Assembly (NCBI GenBank): GCA_029858255.1
Contig: JAOUFJ010000002.1
Location: 74,637 to 138,636 of the forward strand
Reading direction: 5' to 3'
DNA length: 64,000 bases
Source: a candidate division WOR-3 bacterium
GTDB lineage: Bacteria > Hydrothermota > Tepidihabitantia > SM23-42
Each line of letters begins with the position of its first letter. Position 1 is the stretch's first letter. Below, one piece after another: positions 23,059 to 37,997 of this stretch. The notes beneath the pieces are model-generated. The model had not been told where the DNA came from, searched no databases, and saw only the letters and a list, made by a program, of their open reading frames with translations. The position numbers and the translations under genes are program-made.

Positions 23059-23068
23059 GTGTATACAC
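23059..23068. promoter_or_regulatory. GTGTATACAC palindrome at the otsAB transcription start
   Basis: A perfect 10-bp palindrome lies about 5 nt after the predicted transcription start and just before ATG 23080. It could be a repressor half-site or operator; one copy only, so support is weak. Confidence 0.3.
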
Positions 23069-23079
23069 TCAAAACCACT

Positions 23080-25260
23080 ATGAAAAAAATCCTTGTAATA
23101 TCGAATCGGCTCCCTGTTACTGTTACGAAAAGAGAACGTCAGCTGAGATTCAACCCTAGCGTTGGTGGGCTTGCGACCGGATTGAGCTCGCTCTCACGAT
23201 CATACGAGAACATCTGGATAGGATGGCCCGGCATTGCTCTTGAGCGCGTTGAACGAGAGAAAAAGCAGATAACTCGCAGGCTGAGGAAAGACAATTGCCA
23301 TCCTGTTTTCATAAAGCAGAACGATATGGAGAACTATTACTACGGTTTCTGCAACCGAACAATCTGGCCGCTGTTCCATTATTTCACGCAATACTCTATT
23401 TACAACAGGAAGAACTGGAATTCTTATCTGAAAGTAAATCAAATGTTCTGTAGTGAGATATTAAAAATTGCAGGACCTGACGATATCATCTGGGTCCACG
23501 ACTATCACCTGATGTTATTACCACAACTCATAAGGAAGAAAATGCCCCATGCAACAATTGGATTCTTTCTGCACATACCTTTTCCATCTTCGGAAGTTTT
23601 CCGCATTCTCCCGCCTCGCAAGGAGATCGTACGGGGCATATTAGGTTCCGACCTTATAGGGTTCCACACGTATGATTACGCTCACCATTTCATTCAGACC
23701 ACAAGACGGCTGTTGGGATACGAACATAGTAAAGCCCAGATAAACATTGATAACCGTATCGTGAAGGTCGATGCATTTCCCATGGGGATAGACTTTGATG
23801 CATTTAATCAGGCTGAGGATGATGCCACTGTCCAGCGTGAAATAAAGAAAATAAGAAGGCGCGTCGGCGATAGGAAAATCATCATTTCCATCGACCGGTT
23901 AGATTATACAAAAGGAATAGCACAAAGGCTCGAGGCTTTTGACCATTTCCTCGATACGAACCCGAAATACCGAGAAAAGGTCTCTCTGATCCTCGTCGCC
24001 GTACCGTCCCGTACGGGCGTTGAGCAATATGCACTACTAAAACGTGAAGTAGACGAACTCATCAGCAGGATAAATGGAAAATACGGAACCATTGGCTGGC
24101 TGCCGATATGGTATCTGTATCGCTTTCTGCCATTCAAGAATCTGGTACCGTTATACAGTGTCGGTGATGTCGCTCTGGTAACGCCTATACGAGATGGCAT
24201 GAATCTCATCGCGAAAGAATATCTGGCGACAAAAAAAGACAAAAAAGGCGTTCTGATTCTGAGCGAGATGGCAGGAGCCTCAAAAGTTCTGGGCGAAGCG
24301 ATAATCGTCAATCCAAACAACAAGGAAGAGATCGGCGCAGCAATTAGAACGGCACTCCAGATGCCTGAGAAAGAACAGGTACGAAGAAATGATGTCATGC
24401 AAAAACGTCTCAAACGCTACAATGTTGAACGCTGGGCGCATGATTTCATCGATGTGCTCTTACGAACAAAACAGAAACAATCCGAAATGATATCAAAAAA
24501 CCTGGACCTTGAAATTTCAAGAAAAATGATCAAGGACTGCCGGTCGAGACGGAATAGATTGCTACTGCTCGACTACGATGGGACTCTTGTTCCATTCGTA
24601 TCAGAGCCCTCCAGAGCAGCCCCCGACAGAGAAATCACCAACATCATCAGAAAACTTGCGGCTAACCCGAAGAACACGGTAGTCATCGTAAGCGGAAGAG
24701 ATCGCCAGACGCTCGATAACTGGTTCGGCAATTTGAATCTCGGGATGATCGCTGAACATGGCGCGTGGTTCAAGGAAAGATCAAACAAATGGCGAATGAT
24801 AAAACACTTGAAAAACGACTGGAAAGAACAGATAAGGCCAATACTGGAACTATATGTCGACCGCACGCCTGGTGCCCGCATCGAAGAAAAGGAATTCTCC
24901 CTTGTCTGGCATCACCGAAAAACAGACGAAAGATTGGGGGAACGCAGGGCGAGCGATCTAAAAGAAAGATTGATCGATATCGTCACTCCAATCAATCTGA
25001 GTATACTTGAGGGGAGCAAAGTCATCGAAGTAAAGAACAGCGGCGTCAACAAAGGCATTGCCGCACAGAGATGGCTGGGCAAGCAACATTATGATTTCAT
25101 TTTGGCAATCGGTGATGACTGGACCGATGAAGACACCTTTGAGGCGGTGCCTGAATCAGCATACTCCATTAAAGTCGGTATCGGTTACACAAAGGCAAGA
25201 TACACAATACCTTCACAAAAGGATGCGCGCGATCTCTTGAAAGAATTAGCCAAGTGTTAA
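23080..25260 (+). CDS. otsAB: fused trehalose-6-phosphate synthase/phosphatase (OtsA-OtsB)
   Basis: A 726-residue bifunctional enzyme making trehalose from UDP-glucose and glucose-6-phosphate. The N-terminal GT20 domain (about 1-480) has SNRLPVT, WVHDYHLML and LDYTKGI. The C-terminal HAD phosphatase domain starts at DYDGT (498-502) and ends with GDDWTDEDTFE. Normally these are separate bacterial genes; fusions occur in some lineages. ATG 23080 gives the usual family N-terminus (MKKILVISNRLP). GTG 23059 is in frame and has a weak AGGA upstream, so the start is uncertain. Confidence 0.95.
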   Translation: MKKILVISNRLPVTVTKRERQLRFNPSVGGLATGLSSLSRSYENIWIGWPGIALERVEREKKQITRRLRKDNCHPVFIKQNDMENYYYGFCNRTIWPLFHYFTQYSIYNRKNWNSYLKVNQMFCSEILKIAGPDDIIWVHDYHLMLLPQLIRKKMPHATIGFFLHIPFPSSEVFRILPPRKEIVRGILGSDLIGFHTYDYAHHFIQTTRRLLGYEHSKAQINIDNRIVKVDAFPMGIDFDAFNQAEDDATVQREIKKIRRRVGDRKIIISIDRLDYTKGIAQRLEAFDHFLDTNPKYREKVSLILVAVPSRTGVEQYALLKREVDELISRINGKYGTIGWLPIWYLYRFLPFKNLVPLYSVGDVALVTPIRDGMNLIAKEYLATKKDKKGVLILSEMAGASKVLGEAIIVNPNNKEEIGAAIRTALQMPEKEQVRRNDVMQKRLKRYNVERWAHDFIDVLLRTKQKQSEMISKNLDLEISRKMIKDCRSRRNRLLLLDYDGTLVPFVSEPSRAAPDREITNIIRKLAANPKNTVVIVSGRDRQTLDNWFGNLNLGMIAEHGAWFKERSNKWRMIKHLKNDWKEQIRPILELYVDRTPGARIEEKEFSLVWHHRKTDERLGERRASDLKERLIDIVTPINLSILEGSKVIEVKNSGVNKGIAAQRWLGKQHYDFILAIGDDWTDEDTFEAVPESAYSIKVGIGYTKARYTIPSQKDARDLLKELAKC

Positions 25261-25481: not shown

Positions 25482-26693
25482 ATGAAAAGAAGCCTAAATG
25501 ATTACCGCACTATTGTCGGTGACGAAGCAATAGGCAAGTTATATCACAAAGCGAGAAAAATCTATGGCAAAACCGTGGTCCATGTGAATTCGACCTACTA
25601 CGGCGGCGGTGTTGCCGAGATTCTGAGCGGACTCGTTCCATTAATGAATGACATAGGAATCGCTGCTGGTTGGAGAATGCTTCGCGGAACACCAGATTTC
25701 TTCGATATAACGAAGAAATTCCACAATGCTCTCCAGGGAAATTCGATCAATCTCAGTGAGATCAAAAAGAAACTATATGTACAAGCGAATGAGGACTTCT
25801 CGACCTATTCACATATCTCCCAGAATTGCGTGATCATACATGACCCGCAGCCCTTACCCTTGATTCAGTTCTACCCGCGGAAACAGCCCTGGGTATGGAG
25901 GATTCATATCGATCTCTCGAACCCGAATCAGGAATTATGGGGATTTCTGAAAAATTTCATTCTGAAGTACGATGTCATCATAATCTCAAGTGATACCTAC
26001 AGGTTGAAGGATACGCCGGTCGAACAGCGCGTCATACACCCTGCCATAGACCCGCTGTCACCAAAGAACATGCCGATTCCCGAGAAAGTCATTGCAAAGT
26101 ATCTGAAAAAGTTCAATATTCCTACAGACAAACCGATAATCACTCAAATATCCAGATTTGACAAGTTCAAAGATCAGGAAGGATTGATCGATGTCTTCAG
26201 AATGGTAAAGGAAAAAGTAGACTGCCGGCTCGTTCTTTGCGGCAGTAGCGCACTCGACGACCCGGAATCGCAACAATACTACGAACGCACAAAACGCAAA
26301 GCGAATAACTTTGTCAAAGACCGGGATATAATCATGATAACAAGCGAGAACAATATTCTGGTGAATGCATTGCAGAGAAAATCTGACGTCATAGTGCAGA
26401 AATCTTTACGCGAAGGCTTCGGACTGACCGTGACCGAAGCGATGTTGAAAGAAAAACCTGTGATCGCCTCCCGGGTCGGCGGCATAATGCTGCAGATCAA
26501 AGACGGTGATGACGGATTCCTTCTTGAAGCCGACGATAAAGAAGGCTTTGCCGCGAGAATCGTAGAAGTTCTGCAAGAACCTTCACTGGCGAGATCTCTG
26601 GGCAAAAAAGCAGGCGAAGTGGCAAAAGAAAAATTCCTCATCACACGGCTACTCGCTGATTACCTCGATCTGCTCGGTGATTTAATAGGTTAG
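25482..26693 (+). CDS. treT: trehalose synthase, TreT type (GT4 glycosyltransferase)
   Basis: A 403-residue GT4-family enzyme. The N-terminal block HVNSTYYGGGVAEIL, then TKKFHNALQG, is characteristic of TreT, which joins NDP-glucose and free glucose to make trehalose and can work in reverse. The C-terminal donor site has SLREGFGLTVTEAM. Adjacent to otsAB, it gives the cell two trehalose routes. The Thermococcus/Thermotoga-type distribution of TreT is noted, but temperature preference cannot be inferred from this alone. Confidence 0.88.
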   Translation: MKRSLNDYRTIVGDEAIGKLYHKARKIYGKTVVHVNSTYYGGGVAEILSGLVPLMNDIGIAAGWRMLRGTPDFFDITKKFHNALQGNSINLSEIKKKLYVQANEDFSTYSHISQNCVIIHDPQPLPLIQFYPRKQPWVWRIHIDLSNPNQELWGFLKNFILKYDVIIISSDTYRLKDTPVEQRVIHPAIDPLSPKNMPIPEKVIAKYLKKFNIPTDKPIITQISRFDKFKDQEGLIDVFRMVKEKVDCRLVLCGSSALDDPESQQYYERTKRKANNFVKDRDIIMITSENNILVNALQRKSDVIVQKSLREGFGLTVTEAMLKEKPVIASRVGGIMLQIKDGDDGFLLEADDKEGFAARIVEVLQEPSLARSLGKKAGEVAKEKFLITRLLADYLDLLGDLIG

Positions 26694-27842: not shown

Positions 27843-28844
27843 TTACTTCCGAAAAAGACTATTAGTGTAGATCTCGGGATTGACGACGTTGGGTGGGCGT
27901 TTATTATCGATCAATACGGCAACAAGATTCTCAACGACCATAAGGGCCATCTTTGTCCTCGCTTCGAGTGAAGCCGACCCTATGTGTGGCACCAAGACAG
28001 CGTTGGGCATCTGCAGGAGTTCCGGCGTTACGACCGGTTCATTCTCATAAACATCGAGGGCACAACCGGCGATGTCCCCATTCCTGAGCGCTTCAACCAA
28101 TGCCTCTTCATCGACAATGGCTCCGCGCGCAACATTGATCAGATACGCCGTCCTCTTCATTGCATTCAATTCTGCACCCGAGATAAAATGGCGAGTATCA
28201 TCGCTCAACGGTGCATGGATCGAAACAAAATCAGACTCACTCAGGAGTTGTATTGCTTCACGATACTGTATGTCGATTCGTTTCTCTACATCTTCTGGGA
28301 GCCGTTTCTTGTCATAGTACAGAACCGCCATTCCGAAACCGTGCGCGCGCCTCGCGACAGCCTGGCCTATTCTCCCCATCCCGACAATACCCAATGTCTT
28401 TCCATAAACATCTGAACCGAGAAGGAGTTCAGGCGCCCAGCCCCTGAATCTTCCTGCCCTGACGTAATTATCGCCTTCAACGATGCGGCGGGCGACCGAG
28501 ATGAGCAGCCCTATTGTCAGATCAGCCGTCGCTTCTGTGAGCACGTCAGGCGTGTTTGTGACCGGTATTTTCCTCTTGTTGACCGCTGCAAGGTCTATAT
28601 TGTTGTAACCTACAGCATAGTTGGCGATGATCTTGAGATTGGACGCTTTCTGGATTATCTCCAAATCAATATCATCGGTCAACAAACATGCCAATCCTTC
28701 CTTATCCGATATGCTTTCGGCAATACGGCTATGAGGCATGGGTTCGTCGAGTGGATTGACATTCAGATCGAAGTGTTGACTTAGTAGATTCATTCCGCTT
28801 GCGGGTAGTCTGCGCGTCAGCAATACCTTGGGCTTATGGTGCAT
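27843..28844 (-). CDS. D-isomer-specific 2-hydroxyacid dehydrogenase (glyoxylate/hydroxypyruvate reductase-like)
   Basis: A 333-residue NAD(P)-dependent dehydrogenase. The Rossmann motif is GMGRIGQAVARR; catalytic residues are the Arg in NVARGAIVDEEAL, a Glu in VYENEPV, and the His in PHIGSASLEART. Overall resemblance is to glyoxylate reductase (GyaR/GhrB). ATG 28844 follows GAGGAG at a good distance; a GTG four codons upstream is less likely. The gene is on the opposite strand from its neighbours to the left. Confidence 0.9.
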   Translation of the reverse strand: MHHKPKVLLTRRLPASGMNLLSQHFDLNVNPLDEPMPHSRIAESISDKEGLACLLTDDIDLEIIQKASNLKIIANYAVGYNNIDLAAVNKRKIPVTNTPDVLTEATADLTIGLLISVARRIVEGDNYVRAGRFRGWAPELLLGSDVYGKTLGIVGMGRIGQAVARRAHGFGMAVLYYDKKRLPEDVEKRIDIQYREAIQLLSESDFVSIHAPLSDDTRHFISGAELNAMKRTAYLINVARGAIVDEEALVEALRNGDIAGCALDVYENEPVVTPELLQMPNAVLVPHIGSASLEARTKMALMVVENLVAVLIDNKRPPNVVNPEIYTNSLFRK

Positions 28845-28887
28845 AACGCTCCTCACTCATCCAGCGACCACCCTAACACCGGCGACG

Positions 28888-29441: not shown

Positions 29442-29645
29442 ATGGAGAAAATCAATGCCGATACCCATGTCGAACAAATACTGATGAAATATCCTGCTCT
29501 GTCGAGGATATTCATCGATTTCGGTCTCCCCTGTCTGGTCTGCGGTGAACCGTTCTGGGGCACGATAGCGGAATTAGGCAGCAACCATAGTATCAGCATT
29601 GATAAATTAAATGAGGTTAAGGCAGAAATTGATGAAAAATCATAA
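29442..29645 (+). CDS. DUF1858 domain protein (hybrid-cluster-associated redox disulfide domain)
   Basis: A 67-residue protein matching the DUF1858 pattern: a Glu-rich N-terminal helix, then a CxxC (C31, C34 in LPCLVCGEPFWGT). This domain often accompanies hybrid-cluster proteins and other redox genes and may exchange electrons through its disulfide. Its end overlaps the NUDIX-PanD gene by 14 nt. Confidence 0.8.
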   Translation: MEKINADTHVEQILMKYPALSRIFIDFGLPCLVCGEPFWGTIAELGSNHSISIDKLNEVKAEIDEKS

Positions 29646-30492
29646 ATTTTGTCCATTGTGTGGAAGTATTCTATTAGCAAAGAAAATTGACGGTCTGGAC
29701 CGCCCAGTGTGCTTAACCTGCGGTTGGATATACTATGCAAATCCCCTACCAAGTGCCGTGGCATTTGTTCTCCGTGAAGGTAAAGAAGTACTCTTGATAA
29801 AGCGCGGCGTGCAACCAGGTAAGGGTAAGTGGGCTCTTCCTTCTGGTTTTGTCGAAGCAGATGAGTTACCGCAGCAGACCGTGATCAGAGAACTTAAAGA
29901 AGAAACCGGGATCAATGGCACTCTATCTCACCTCATCGGTGTGTACACAGAGCCAACAAAGATGTATGGAAATGTACTGCTGATCGCATACGATGTTAAG
30001 TATCAGACCGGCAAACCCAGGGCGCGTACTGATACTGTGGACGCCAAATTCTTCCCCTTGAGCAAGATACCCAGAATACCATTTGACAGTCACCGGGCGA
30101 TCATCCGCGACGGTCTGCACAGGAACCGGTCGAACGGGATGAATGTCAATGTACTCAAATCCAAAATTACTGAAGCAACCATAACCCACACAAAGCTATT
30201 CTACAAGGGAAGCATGGGGATTGACAGTGCCGTCATGAAGGAAGTAAACATCCTGCCAGGTGAAAAAGTTCACGTACTTAATTATGACAACGGAAAAAGG
30301 CTGGAAACCTATACCATCGAAGAGAAGGCTGGCTCTGGAAGGATCGTGCTGTACGGACCAGCATCGAAAAAAGGTGAGGTTGGACAAAGACTCTGTATAT
30401 TATCATACGCTAGCATGACCTACGACAGCGCAAGAGTATTCAAAGCAAAAGTGGTTACGCTCGATTCCAAGAACAGAATAAAACGCCGATAG
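29632..30492 (+). CDS. NUDIX hydrolase fused to aspartate 1-decarboxylase (PanD)-like domain
   Basis: A 286-residue fusion. Residues 1-35 are a Zn ribbon (CPLCG, CLTCG) and 36-160 a NUDIX hydrolase; its box begins at G72 and contains RELKEETG (86-93). Residues 170-286 match PanD, which makes beta-alanine for pantothenate and CoA. They include K178, the Gly-Ser self-cleavage site G193-S194 (YKGSMGID), R223 and Y227. The conserved Asn of the NGAA motif appears as Tyr (Y241). Self-cleavage would split the chain after residue 193. Start 29632 is chosen over 29611 for its AAGG site. Confidence 0.85.
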   Translation: MKNHKFCPLCGSILLAKKIDGLDRPVCLTCGWIYYANPLPSAVAFVLREGKEVLLIKRGVQPGKGKWALPSGFVEADELPQQTVIRELKEETGINGTLSHLIGVYTEPTKMYGNVLLIAYDVKYQTGKPRARTDTVDAKFFPLSKIPRIPFDSHRAIIRDGLHRNRSNGMNVNVLKSKITEATITHTKLFYKGSMGIDSAVMKEVNILPGEKVHVLNYDNGKRLETYTIEEKAGSGRIVLYGPASKKGEVGQRLCILSYASMTYDSARVFKAKVVTLDSKNRIKRR

Positions 30493-31460
30493 TGCATCAA
30501 CAATCCCAGAAACAAAAGACATCCGGATACACATACGGTCCCGTACCCTCGAGAAGATTGGGTTTCTCTCTCGGCATCGATATCATGCCACACAAGCATT
30601 GTAGCTTTGATTGTGTATATTGTCAGCTCGGCAAAACGACAAACACAACCGTGTTACGCAAAGAATATACGCCTACGCAAGAGGTCCTTCGTGAAATCAA
30701 AGAGGTCTTGAAAAGAAATATGCAGAGCGATTTCTTGACCTTCTCAGGGTCTGGTGAGCCGACGCTCCACAAAGATATCGGCTATATGATCAATGAGCTA
30801 AAGAAGCTGACGAAAACTCCGATAGCCGTGCTCACCAACGGTTCACTACTACACATCTCTGAGGTAAGAAGCGATCTGAAGAACGCGGACCTGGTGATAC
30901 CCACATTATCTACGGCAGATGAGGCTGTCTTTCGAAAAATACACCGTAGCCACGCGACAATTGATCTCGCACGGGTTATTGAAGGATACATCAGCTTCAG
31001 GAAAATGTACAAAGGACAAATATGGCTCGAAGTGATGCTCGTTCACGGCATGAATGACAGTCCGGAGCAGATCAGGAAACTAAAGGACGTGATCGATAGA
31101 ATTAACCCTGATAAGATACACCTGAATACAGTTGTGCGTCCACCGAGCGAAGCACACGCGCAGCCAGTCCCAATGGAAACGATGCAGGAACTGAAAAAAA
31201 TTCTGGGTGAGAAGTGCGAGATCATCGTTGATTTCGCTGCAAAGACAAAAGACGGACGAGATGGCAATGCGCTGGAAATGATTACAGCGATAATCTCCCG
31301 TAGACCGGTCACTGTGGCGGATCTGGTTAGAGCAACGAGCCTTCACAAAAATGAGATACTGAAATACCTTCATTTGCTCTCACGGAAGGGAAGAATCAAT
31401 ATTTCAAGGCATAACGGAAAAGAATTTTACACGCTAAGGGGGAATGATGATCGAACCTAA
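30492..31460 (+). CDS. radical SAM protein with C-terminal winged helix
   Basis: A 322-residue radical SAM protein of the COG0731 type. Cluster cysteines are C37, C41 and C44 (CSFDCVYC, a Cx3Cx2C motif), and FSGSGEPTLH is the SAM-binding GGE-like motif. Residues about 255-322 look like a small winged-helix domain (TSLHKNEILKYLHLLSRKG). The reaction is unknown. GTG 30492 overlaps the upstream stop by one base, and the end overlaps the next gene by 17 nt. Confidence 0.88.
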   Translation: MHQQSQKQKTSGYTYGPVPSRRLGFSLGIDIMPHKHCSFDCVYCQLGKTTNTTVLRKEYTPTQEVLREIKEVLKRNMQSDFLTFSGSGEPTLHKDIGYMINELKKLTKTPIAVLTNGSLLHISEVRSDLKNADLVIPTLSTADEAVFRKIHRSHATIDLARVIEGYISFRKMYKGQIWLEVMLVHGMNDSPEQIRKLKDVIDRINPDKIHLNTVVRPPSEAHAQPVPMETMQELKKILGEKCEIIVDFAAKTKDGRDGNALEMITAIISRRPVTVADLVRATSLHKNEILKYLHLLSRKGRINISRHNGKEFYTLRGNDDRT

Positions 31461-31956
31461 AGACATGAACAAGGATGAACTCTTTGAGTTATTGACCGAC
31501 GCAGCTAAGAACTGGCTCGCCCATGACGGTTTGTGGTTTCAGACAGTGGAACAGAAATTCGGCATGGATGCTGCGATCGAACTCGACGGCAAGGCATGGG
31601 AAAAGTTCACCCGGATCGAAGCCCAGCGCATAATGAAAAGACTCAATATGCAGCCGGGCGGCGGAATCCCAGCCCTCATCCAGTCCCTTAAGTTCAGATT
31701 GTACGCCTACCTCAACAAACAAATTGTTGTCGAATCGTCAGACAAACACTGCATATTCAGAATGGAGAGCTGCCGCGTCCAGGATGCGCGCAAGAGAAAG
31801 AACCTGCCGGATTTTCCGTGTAAGTCAGTAGGTATTCTTGAATATACTTTTTTCGCCAAGACTATAGATCCCCGGATCGAAACACGGTGTTTGAGCTGTC
31901 CTCCTGACCCGCATCCCGACGAATATTATTGCTGCTGGGAATTCAGAATTAAATAG
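31444..31956 (+). CDS. conserved protein, DUF6125-like
   Basis: A 170-residue cytoplasmic protein resembling the DUF6125/L-2-amino-thiazoline-4-carboxylic-acid-hydrolase-like group, with DGLWFQTVEQKFGMDAA near the N-terminus and ARKRKNLPDFPC plus CLSCPPDPHPDEYYCCWEF near the end. The clustered C-terminal cysteines could bind metal. I do not assign a function. It overlaps the radical SAM gene, so they may act together. ATG 31447 is an alternative start. Confidence 0.65.
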   Translation: MMIEPKDMNKDELFELLTDAAKNWLAHDGLWFQTVEQKFGMDAAIELDGKAWEKFTRIEAQRIMKRLNMQPGGGIPALIQSLKFRLYAYLNKQIVVESSDKHCIFRMESCRVQDARKRKNLPDFPCKSVGILEYTFFAKTIDPRIETRCLSCPPDPHPDEYYCCWEFRIK

Positions 31957-34858: not shown

Positions 34859-35878
34859 TCATGAACTTTTCGTACATTTCAATATATCATTTTCCACACT
34901 GAAGATAACACCCAGGAATTTTTCGACAACCCAGATGTTCGTTTGCGCATGATTCGTCAATGACGGAATGCTTATTTCGCATGGCATGCCTGACCGGTGT
35001 GTCGCCAGAGCCACGAACGGTACCATTTGGTCGACCATCCACTGGTCAACGCACGCTTCTGCTGCAACAGCTGCTTTCAATACATTGGCGGCGTCCATGC
35101 CCACTTCCTCAGCAGGTTTCCCCCTTCTGCCGATTGCATCTGCACCAAGTAGACCATTATCATAACGTGCGCACGCGGTTATGAAACAACCGGGAGAGGA
35201 TGCATCGATATACGAAAACGTGATGTCGGGATCTCTGAACACCCCGGAAAATCCATTCTGAATTCTTTCCGCAACCTTCGCCGTCTTCAGATGATTAGAA
35301 GCGGTTATCCAAGCACTGACTTGTTTCACCGAACCCCGATCTCTCAATTTAAAAACCCCAATATCCGATGGAATTATCCTCACAAATACTTCGCCGCCGC
35401 CCTTCGGGTAGAACCCGTGGCGTCTAACTTCAACTTCTATTGAGACACTGTGATTCCGTAGTATTGAACAGAATACATGTAAGAAATATGTGATCGTCGG
35501 GCTAAACGGCACCGCTGTTCCGCCTCTTAGTGTGAGTTCAAGTGGACAGTCGGCATAGGTCCCGAGGGGAACTAATGTCTGCAGTATCAAGGTGACCGAC
35601 CCCGCGGTTTTGGTATCGATGACATATTCTCCTCCCTTGATTTTTCCCGGAACAAAAACGATGTCGGTTGAGTTCATACTCAGCCCATTGATCCTGGCGT
35701 CACATATCTGACCGGCAGCAGCGATACCGTGAAGGTGTTGGGGTCTCAAACCAGGCTTATCCCTGCCTTTTCTGATATTGAAGATATGTACAGGTTTACT
35801 GGTTATCGCCGATACCGCAACCGCAGTTCTCAGGATCTGGCCACCTCCTTCGAGGTAGCTACCGTCGATCTCGATCAT
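34859..35878 (-). CDS. rtcA: RNA 3'-terminal phosphate cyclase (RtcA)
   Basis: A 339-residue RtcA, which uses ATP to turn RNA 3'-phosphate ends into 2',3'-cyclic phosphates. Family blocks include IDGSYLEGGGQILRTAVA at the N-terminus, GLRPQHLHGI, and FYPKGGGEV in the middle. The adenylated His probably lies in NHAQTN near the C-terminus. It is the last gene of a minus-strand operon behind a DUF2284 protein and an ATP-dependent DNA ligase, so the operon joins nucleic-acid end-processing genes. Confidence 0.94.
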   Translation of the reverse strand: MIEIDGSYLEGGGQILRTAVAVSAITSKPVHIFNIRKGRDKPGLRPQHLHGIAAAGQICDARINGLSMNSTDIVFVPGKIKGGEYVIDTKTAGSVTLILQTLVPLGTYADCPLELTLRGGTAVPFSPTITYFLHVFCSILRNHSVSIEVEVRRHGFYPKGGGEVFVRIIPSDIGVFKLRDRGSVKQVSAWITASNHLKTAKVAERIQNGFSGVFRDPDITFSYIDASSPGCFITACARYDNGLLGADAIGRRGKPAEEVGMDAANVLKAAVAAEACVDQWMVDQMVPFVALATHRSGMPCEISIPSLTNHAQTNIWVVEKFLGVIFSVENDILKCTKSS

Positions 35879-36461: not shown

Positions 36462-37997
36462 TTACGGGCCCTTCGATGAAACTGCTGAAATGCTTTCAAG
36501 ATCGATTATCGTGTTTATCTCTTGAGCGGTCTTGTCTTCCCGAAGCTTCTTCACACGGGCGAATCTGAGGGCAACACCCGATTCATATTTAGGGCTCTTC
36601 TGCACTTCATTGAATACTATCTCGACGACTACAACCGGTCTGACGTACACGGTCCATTCGTCTTCGTGCACTTTGTATCTGGGAAGGTTAACAGTCATCC
36701 ATTGTAGCATTTTATCGGTCAGCCCCTTAAAAGTTTTACCGACCATCAAATATTTTGTTTTTGTTTCATCGAGGACGCCGAGATGCAGGTTTGACAGAAA
36801 ACCGTGTCTTCGTCCGTGGCCCCACTCGGCCGCCAATATCACACAATCAACCGTATGTGTACCCTTGAGTTTGAACCAGAATTTTCCACGTTTACCAGGG
36901 CGATACTCAGAACCGAGTAATTTGACAACTACTCCCTCATTACCCAGTTCTAATGACTGGTCATAGAAAGTTCTGGCTTTGTTCTTACTGACAGGTATCA
37001 GCCGAGCCGCGAGATTACGCTTTCTACGAACTACATCATTGAGGATTTCTACGCGCTCCGCGTAAGTCTTCCCTGTCAAATCCTCATCACCTACATAGAG
37101 TGCATCGAAATACTGCGGCAAGACCGGCACCTCACGTTGCATCTCAATGATATTCTTTTTCCTCGTGGTACGGCGCGCAAGAACCTGGAATCGAACCGGT
37201 CTCCCCTTCTTATCGATGCCGATCGCCTCACCATCAAGGATAAACTTGGTGACCGGTAATTGTCGCGCATTCTGGACTAACTCTGGAAAGTGATCTGTGA
37301 TGTCCTTGAGATGCCGGGAGAATATCTTGACCTTATCTCCATCACGGTGTGTCTGTATTCTAATTCCATCCAGCTTGTGCTCCAGTGCAAATTCTTCATT
37401 TTCATCGAAGACATCATCAAGGGAATTTGCCATCTGGGCAAGCATTGGCTTAACCGGACTGAAAATGCTTATACCCAGACTATCTATCGCCTCCTTCCCT
37501 TGACTCCGCAGCAGAAAGAACAGTTCTGCGATGTCGGGTTTTTGAAGATATGCCCTCTCAATCTCTTCATCGGATAGTCCAAAGAAGCGGGCTATGGCAT
37601 GTTTTACCACACCTTCACCTGCACCCTGCTGTACCTCTCCAACCATGAGCAATACGAGGTATTTTCTCTCATCCTTGCCCAGTTTTGTGAAAAGCGGCGT
37701 CAAGGCTTCAATCTTTTTTCGCCCCCTTGCTGAGCAAACCAGTTCCAAGTACCTGTCGACCTGAACGAGACTGGGTGAACGTGAACGCCGAAAAACCGTG
37801 TTGGAAAGCTCAGTTATACCTTTCCATGCTATATTGAGCTTGCCCTGCCTTATTCTGCCAGCAATGTAGTTTACGCCGATCAGCGCCTCATCAACAGACA
37901 ATTTGCTGAGGAATTCTTCAATGATACTGATTTTGCTGTTCCTTGAGGAAGTCTGTCTCACTCTTTCTGAATATTCAACTATCGCTTTAAACAACAT
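36462..37997 (-). CDS. lig: ATP-dependent DNA ligase (archaeal/LigB type)
   Basis: A 511-residue ATP-dependent ligase. An N-terminal helical DNA-binding domain is followed by the adenylation domain with motif I EHKLDGIR (catalytic K208), motif III region FDALYVGDEDL, motif IV NEGVVVKLL and motif V FWFKLK, then an OB domain. It joins nicked DNA. It overlaps the small Cys-rich gene by 11 nt and has only a weak ribosome-binding site, so translation may depend on coupling. Confidence 0.95.
   Translation of the reverse strand: MLFKAIVEYSERVRQTSSRNSKISIIEEFLSKLSVDEALIGVNYIAGRIRQGKLNIAWKGITELSNTVFRRSRSPSLVQVDRYLELVCSARGRKKIEALTPLFTKLGKDERKYLVLLMVGEVQQGAGEGVVKHAIARFFGLSDEEIERAYLQKPDIAELFFLLRSQGKEAIDSLGISIFSPVKPMLAQMANSLDDVFDENEEFALEHKLDGIRIQTHRDGDKVKIFSRHLKDITDHFPELVQNARQLPVTKFILDGEAIGIDKKGRPVRFQVLARRTTRKKNIIEMQREVPVLPQYFDALYVGDEDLTGKTYAERVEILNDVVRRKRNLAARLIPVSKNKARTFYDQSLELGNEGVVVKLLGSEYRPGKRGKFWFKLKGTHTVDCVILAAEWGHGRRHGFLSNLHLGVLDETKTKYLMVGKTFKGLTDKMLQWMTVNLPRYKVHEDEWTVYVRPVVVVEIVFNEVQKSPKYESGVALRFARVKKLREDKTAQEINTIIDLESISAVSSKGP

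Follow-up and report, generated by a model that had tools for sequence, protein, structure and literature searches.

We have identified, within a window of 64,000 nucleotides of a contig from a candidate division WOR-3 bacterium, a gene that encodes a NUDIX domain and an aspartate decarboxylase (PanD) in a single chain, and we find that this fusion has a single origin, at the base of a WOR-3 order in which it is fixed. The product is probably a genuine bifunctional protein, an active, self-processing PanD tetramer that would carry the NUDIX domains on its beta chains and so hold two activities together. Beta-alanine enters CoA by way of PanD, which is a drug target elsewhere; we know of no direct control of PanD outside the enterobacteria. 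That PanD is invariably fused to an intact NUDIX domain in this order and has a re-tuned active site offers a testable lead to how uncultured bacteria may tie the supply of a CoA precursor to nucleotide-cofactor turnover.

A NUDIX domain and PanD share one reading frame

The fusion gene is one unbroken frame on the + strand (29632..30492), as judged by the frame call, Pfam, NCBIfam and alignment; it runs from an ATG at 29632 to a TAG at 30492 and encodes 286 amino acids, and initiation instead at an in-frame ATG at 29611 would lengthen the product to 293. Residues 40-152 (29749..30087, +) match the Pfam NUDIX family at 72.7 bits (cut-off 21.1) and contain the core pattern G72-x5-E78-x7-R86-E87-L-x-E90-E91, and residues 170-283 (30139..30480, +) match Asp_decarbox at 122.3 bits (cut-off 25) over profile positions 1-114 of 115. 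Ahead of the NUDIX domain lies a putative Cys4 zinc ribbon (residues 5-35; 29644..29736, +) formed by C7, C10, C27 and C30, for which the score against Zn_ribbon_Nudix (PF14803) was 22.6 bits, slightly below the cut-off of 25.6. From the domain boundaries and the alignment, residues 153-169 (30088..30138, +) are taken to be the C-terminal NUDIX helix and a short variable linker. Alignment with G24-S25 of E. coli PanD places the predicted self-processing site at Gly193-Ser194 (30208..30213, +), where the pyruvoyl group would derive from Ser194. Since both Pfam domains score well above cut-off in a single frame, and the same frame is found in 26 genomes, the fusion proposed in the initial annotation is borne out.

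The nearest solved chain to the C-terminal part is 3oug, an aspartate 1-decarboxylase (4e-25), and that to the N-terminal part is 3cng, which is named only 'NUDIX hydrolase' (2.5e-14). The score against the NCBIfam panD equivalog, TIGR00223, was 102.4 bits, which is 3.6 bits below a cut-off of 106 that is a naming threshold and not a biochemical feature; we therefore label the C-terminal part 'PanD domain, activity predicted' and not a certified equivalog. An AlphaFold2 model of the whole protein, built from three rows (the window protein and those of loci L032 and L033), reached a pLDDT of 42 and was not used to describe the domain arrangement. We also considered production of a separate PanD by internal translation, and rejected it because an in-frame start codon preceded closely by a purine-rich stretch, near the PanD start, was present in one of 26 genes (the ATG of the window gene) and is not conserved.

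The fusion arose once and is fixed in one order

To establish how widely the domain pair occurs, we used a phylum sample of 147 genomes, 128 of which have PanD. The order to which the window belongs is represented by 27 genomes in two families, and in all 26 of those that bear PanD a two-domain frame of 284-306 amino acids is present, with the NUDIX and PanD matches lying in frames of equal length in every case; in the remaining order member (G026, 84% complete) neither PanD nor a close NUDIX was found. No such frame is seen in the phylum's 102 remaining genomes with PanD, where PanD frames do not exceed 253 amino acids. Of the longer unfused frames (253, 220 and 210 amino acids), the three that we checked (in L009, L012 and L021) contain the PanD domain alone. 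The survey for this pair that had been suggested as a check thus gives 26 of 26 within the order and 0 of 102 elsewhere in the phylum.

A contig scan of close relatives had returned two fused WOR-3 loci, L032 and L033, whose proteins are 69% and 63% identical to that of the window, and one unfused PanD from Methylococcaceae. The two fused loci are copies of the G005 and G004 rows and were dropped, reducing 28 fused rows to 26; of the 102 phylum genomes with an unfused PanD, 48 contributed loci. In a tree built from 26 fused PanD domains, 49 unfused ones and that of E. coli, the fused rows all lie on one side of a branch with support 100/98, which was also recovered in 100% of 200 bootstrap trees. 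The stem of the fused clade is long, at 0.68 changes per column, and its sister group is not placed because the adjoining fork joins another long branch (L074).

Purifying selection acts on both domains, as dN was lower than dS in the six of ten pairs for which dS was about 1 or less, with dN/dS of approximately 0.13-0.35 for the NUDIX part and 0.04-0.47 for PanD. Saturation affected the remaining four pairs. Among 61 genomes a single close relative of the NUDIX part occurs unfused, a zinc-ribbon type protein of 166 amino acids from G040 (L108, 1492-1980), with 47% identity, and in that genome no PanD, panB or panC was found. An open frame of 24146 amino acids in a further genome (G032:C6, approximately 66000-72000; L120) is probably a long run of N, as 6001 of 13001 bases there are N.

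The PanD part keeps its catalytic residues within a re-tuned pocket

In E. coli numbering, K9, T16, Y22, G24, S25, R54, T57, Y58 and G73 are identical in 26 of 26 fused PanD sequences. The Gly-Ser processing pair is therefore invariant, and the proposal that the window protein retains this site together with the Lys, Arg and Tyr residues holds for the whole clade (K9, Y22, R54 and Y58). It had also been noted that Tyr replaces a conserved Asn, and this too is correct: position 72 is Tyr in the window protein and in all 26 fused rows, and in the window protein Ala74 is in addition replaced by Pro. Among 48 unfused WOR-3 rows (L034 and E. coli having been dropped for this comparison) position 72 is Asn in 39, Lys in seven, Asp in one and Arg in one, so that Asn72 varies independently of fusion, being Lys, Asp or Arg in nine rows (for example L053 and L054). 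In E. coli the N72A variant of PanD still activates, and the excerpt of PMC3975893 on which we draw names Thr57 as the only residue required for activation among those screened. The Asn72 to Tyr change consequently need not block maturation, and Asn72 cannot be regarded as defining for PanD.

The substitution is one of several. We scored a column as specific to the fused clade if it was fixed in at least 24 of 26 fused rows and below 15% in the unfused rows, and 12 columns were of this kind (11, 26, 27, 47, 49, 55, 62, 72, 74, 76, 86 and 88). As many of these line the pocket, the change at position 72 belongs to a wider, clade-fixed re-tuning of the active site. The part of PMC10743139 available to us lists H11, C26, I49, L55, T56, N72, I88 and Y90, picked from the residues within 5 A of aspartate, and six of these eight are among the 12 columns. 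Expressed as enrichment, six of seven conserved pocket residues were fused-specific compared with six of 44 other conserved columns (Fisher p 0.0003), a value to be read in the light of the fact that the authors of that set had pre-filtered it for medium conservation and that we took the CjADC numbering to be that of E. coli. The p value was 0.0065 when R54, T57 and Y58 were added and 0.0047 for the union of sets, whereas the residues taken from the same excerpt of PMC3975893 showed no enrichment among the fused-specific columns (p 0.44); four residue sets were tried in all, and the p values serve as a guide.

The alignment further shows that the fused proteins end before the C-terminal KAIPVQVA tail of class I (PanZ/PanM-dependent) PanD, the role of which is described in the portions of PMC4410942 and PMC4537548 that we consulted. 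Because the fused proteins are without this PanZ-binding tail, self-maturation of the class II type is expected.

The NUDIX part has an intact catalytic core

The GX5EX7REL.EE core of the superfamily box (GX5EX7REUXEEXGU) is present in 26 of 26 fused proteins, and on the strength of this intact box we predict that the NUDIX domain is catalytically competent. The final Gly of the box is replaced in many fused proteins (by N, H or S), and the Cys4 ribbon pattern is seen in 25 of 26, the last reading X at that point. NUDIX enzymes that hydrolyse CoA carry an upstream motif ending in FPGG, and those that hydrolyse NADH (NudC) carry an SQPW(W) motif. Neither FPGG nor SQPW was found in any of the 26 fused proteins, and the NAD(+) diphosphatase model NF001299 scored 40.8 on the fusion against a cut-off of 158. 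The suggestion in the initial annotation that this might be a CoA- or NAD-degrading NUDIX is thus unsupported as stated.

Genomic and pathway context of the fusion

The fusion gene lies in a tight cluster of genes on the + strand. Upstream, and overlapping its start by 14 bases, is a gene for a DUF1858 / hybrid-cluster-protein-associated redox disulfide protein (29442..29645), a class for which both scores are below cut-off (27.9 against 32.2, and 33.7 against 44.95); a gene of this kind precedes the fusion at 21 of the 25 other fused loci. Downstream is a radical SAM gene (30492..31460; Pfam 61.8 bits) whose GTG start overlaps the fusion's stop codon; such a gene also lies downstream, in the same orientation, at every one of the 25 other fused loci. 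No solved relative of the radical SAM protein was found at E 1e-5. Next comes a gene for a DUF6125 protein (31444..31956; Pfam 274.7 bits); of the 25 other fused loci 19 have this gene too, and five of the six where it was not seen are short. No cluster gene was found close to any of the 49 loci with unfused PanD, the majority of them having just 1.5 kb of flank; at one of these (L063) there was a match to a more distant OGT gene. On the - strand, an FmdE-like protein (PF02663; 28888-29322) and, adjoining it, a glyoxylate-reductase-like dehydrogenase (27843-28856) are encoded, both of which several relatives likewise have upstream of their fusion gene.

In 13 of the 25 other fused loci (13 of 26 overall) a gene for a DUF89/ARMT1-like phosphatase is positioned between the fusion and the radical SAM gene. 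These 13 are every DUF89 gene found in the order, being present in 13 of 23 genomes of one family and none of four of the other, and in none of the eight genomes of the window's own genus. The nearest solved relatives of the cluster DUF89 protein are the archaeal-type 2g8l and 2ffj, which are named hypothetical, and its scores are below the NCBIfam cut-offs. As some DUF89 enzymes act on oxidised phosphopantetheine and others on fructose-1-phosphate, according to the excerpted text of PMC8669784, we take a link to CoA as a hint only.

The window's own genome has a single PanD (the fusion), one panC and one panB, all on different contigs. Among the 26 fused genomes panB was found in 25 and panC in 23 (as a short fragment only in G006), and one of the three genomes in which panC was not found is 97% complete. 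We also searched for the PLP decarboxylase family PF00282, which we take to include the archaeal type of aspartate decarboxylase, and obtained no match in the window's own genome; of the 20 fused genomes among 27 genomes searched, five had weak or partial matches, two of them above cut-off. With only one PanD, with panB and panC present and with no PF00282 match of its own, the cell most likely relies on the fusion as its sole maker of beta-alanine, an activity that we predict from sequence.

A model for the fusion protein and its alternatives

The bifunctional reading that we favour starts from the observed architecture, conservation, single origin, sole copy, presence of panB and panC, and gene cluster. 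To these it adds processing, a tetramer, both activities and their coupling, as follows. The PanD part would fold as the usual tetramer, cleave itself between Gly193 and Ser194 to form the pyruvoyl cofactor, and convert aspartate to beta-alanine for pantothenate. After cleavage the zinc-ribbon NUDIX would stay covalently attached to the N-terminal beta chain, as the initial annotation predicted and as follows from the domain order and known PanD processing, with the pyruvoyl on the alpha chain and four NUDIX sites per tetramer. That an N-terminal extension is compatible with maturation is indicated by E. coli PanD, as the His-tagged protein is processed to a beta chain of approximately 4.5 kDa in the excerpt of PMC3975893, from the sizes in which we infer that the tag is N-terminal. 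The NUDIX part would hydrolyse some nucleoside diphosphate-X compound, and fusion would fix the stoichiometry of the two activities within one complex. The most economical reading of a cluster that in half of the order includes a DUF89 'damage-control' phosphatase is that it looks like cofactor synthesis with house-cleaning.

More generally, the fixed fusion suggests a link between synthesis of a cofactor precursor and the breaking or sensing of nucleotide compounds. The control of cofactor supply proposed in the initial annotation may exist, and the NUDIX part may actively control PanD. A specific form of such control is that the NUDIX part acts as a regulator or sensor, where a dinucleotide cofactor, on being bound or slowly hydrolysed, alters maturation or activity of PanD, much as CoA-bound PanZ/PanM does in enterobacteria. 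PanZ makes PanD a known point of CoA feedback (PMC4410942, in the part available), the absence of the PanZ-binding tail leaves space for a different regulator, fixation of the pocket changes is confined to the fused clade, and an inactivated pyrophosphatase fused to a plant FAD synthetase has been taken as a binding domain in the text excerpted from PMC9678776. Unlike a dead sensor, however, the NUDIX part has its catalytic residues intact in 26 of 26 proteins, and we consider this explanation rather unlikely. We are equally doubtful of its boldest version, in which the covalent NUDIX senses or degrades a nucleotide cofactor and in this way gates the re-tuned PanD as an independent WOR-3 counterpart of the PanZ-CoA switch; if true, such gating would be a new control of vitamin B5 synthesis.

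It is unlikely that two ordinary enzymes were joined by chance in a neutral fusion that became fixed with no functional coupling. We saw no earlier functional pair, and the close standalone NUDIX of G040 occurs where PanD, panB and panC were not found, as would fit such a history; against this, every genome of the order that bears PanD (26 in all) has kept the fusion, neither active site has been disrupted, and the gene cluster is conserved.

The remodelled pocket at 12 columns and the 3.6-bit shortfall against TIGR00223 mean that the PanD substrate could have changed, such that no beta-alanine is made and the NUDIX and an altered decarboxylase serve another pathway of the gene cluster. The rarity of the 12 fixed residues in unfused WOR-3 PanD, the concentration of pocket residues among them and the long stem branch all point in this direction. 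On the other hand T57 and Y58 are invariant, as are K9 and R54, which contact malonate in E. coli T57V PanD, Arg54 also meeting the carboxylate of a substrate analogue (PMC3975893, same excerpt); P74 is shared with the solved PanD 3oug; and the fusion is the sole PanD in a genome that has panB and panC and lacks a PF00282 match. We therefore regard a changed substrate as very unlikely. An assembly or gene-calling artefact can be dismissed, as the same frame recurs in 26 assemblies, six of which (G002, G003, G004, G007, G010 and G012) are single-contig genomes, making assembly error unlikely.

Relationship to known systems

We found no report of a NUDIX-PanD pair among the top matches in the open-access literature, a search in which few subscription journals were covered, and the novelty is that of a new domain combination and not of a new enzyme class. 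The C-terminal part resembles known PanD (PF02261, TIGR00223; 3oug, 2c45, 1ppy) in its full-length domain, Gly-Ser site and K9, Y22, R54, T57 and Y58, and differs in the added N-terminal NUDIX and in the fixed Y72, P74, M26, Y49, C86 and others; the N-terminal part shares the Cys4 pattern and NUDIX box with zinc-ribbon NUDIX hydrolases such as 3cng and differs from them in its PanD partner. NadM-Nudix (NMN adenylyltransferase / ADP-ribose pyrophosphatase) and PncC-COG1058 likewise join a cofactor-pathway enzyme to a pyrophosphatase; however, they belong to the NAD pathway, where the hydrolase product can serve as input to the pathway, something not apparent for the PanD fusion (PMC3680494, in the portion consulted). 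Synthesis and hydrolysis also share a chain in the FAD synthetase-FAD pyrophosphatase of plants and animals, although there the pathway is that of FAD and the domain is of the COG1058/FPY1 type and not a NUDIX (excerpt of PMC9678776). A further comparison is with the E. coli PanD-PanZ.CoA complex, which similarly has a second domain per PanD protomer and possible control by a nucleotide cofactor (PMC4410942, in part), but PanZ is of the GNAT acetyltransferase family, associates non-covalently and binds the C-terminal PanD tail that the fusion lacks. The fused clade also offers a natural series of PanD pocket variants, Tyr at position 72 included.

Two further features of the window were noted. 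Two trehalose routes lie adjacent to one another, namely a synthase/phosphatase fusion (Glyco_transf_20 with Trehalose_PPase; 23059-25260) and a TreT-type synthase (25482-26693), and an ATP-dependent DNA ligase (36462-37997) and an RNA 3'-terminal phosphate cyclase (34859-35878) are encoded close together.
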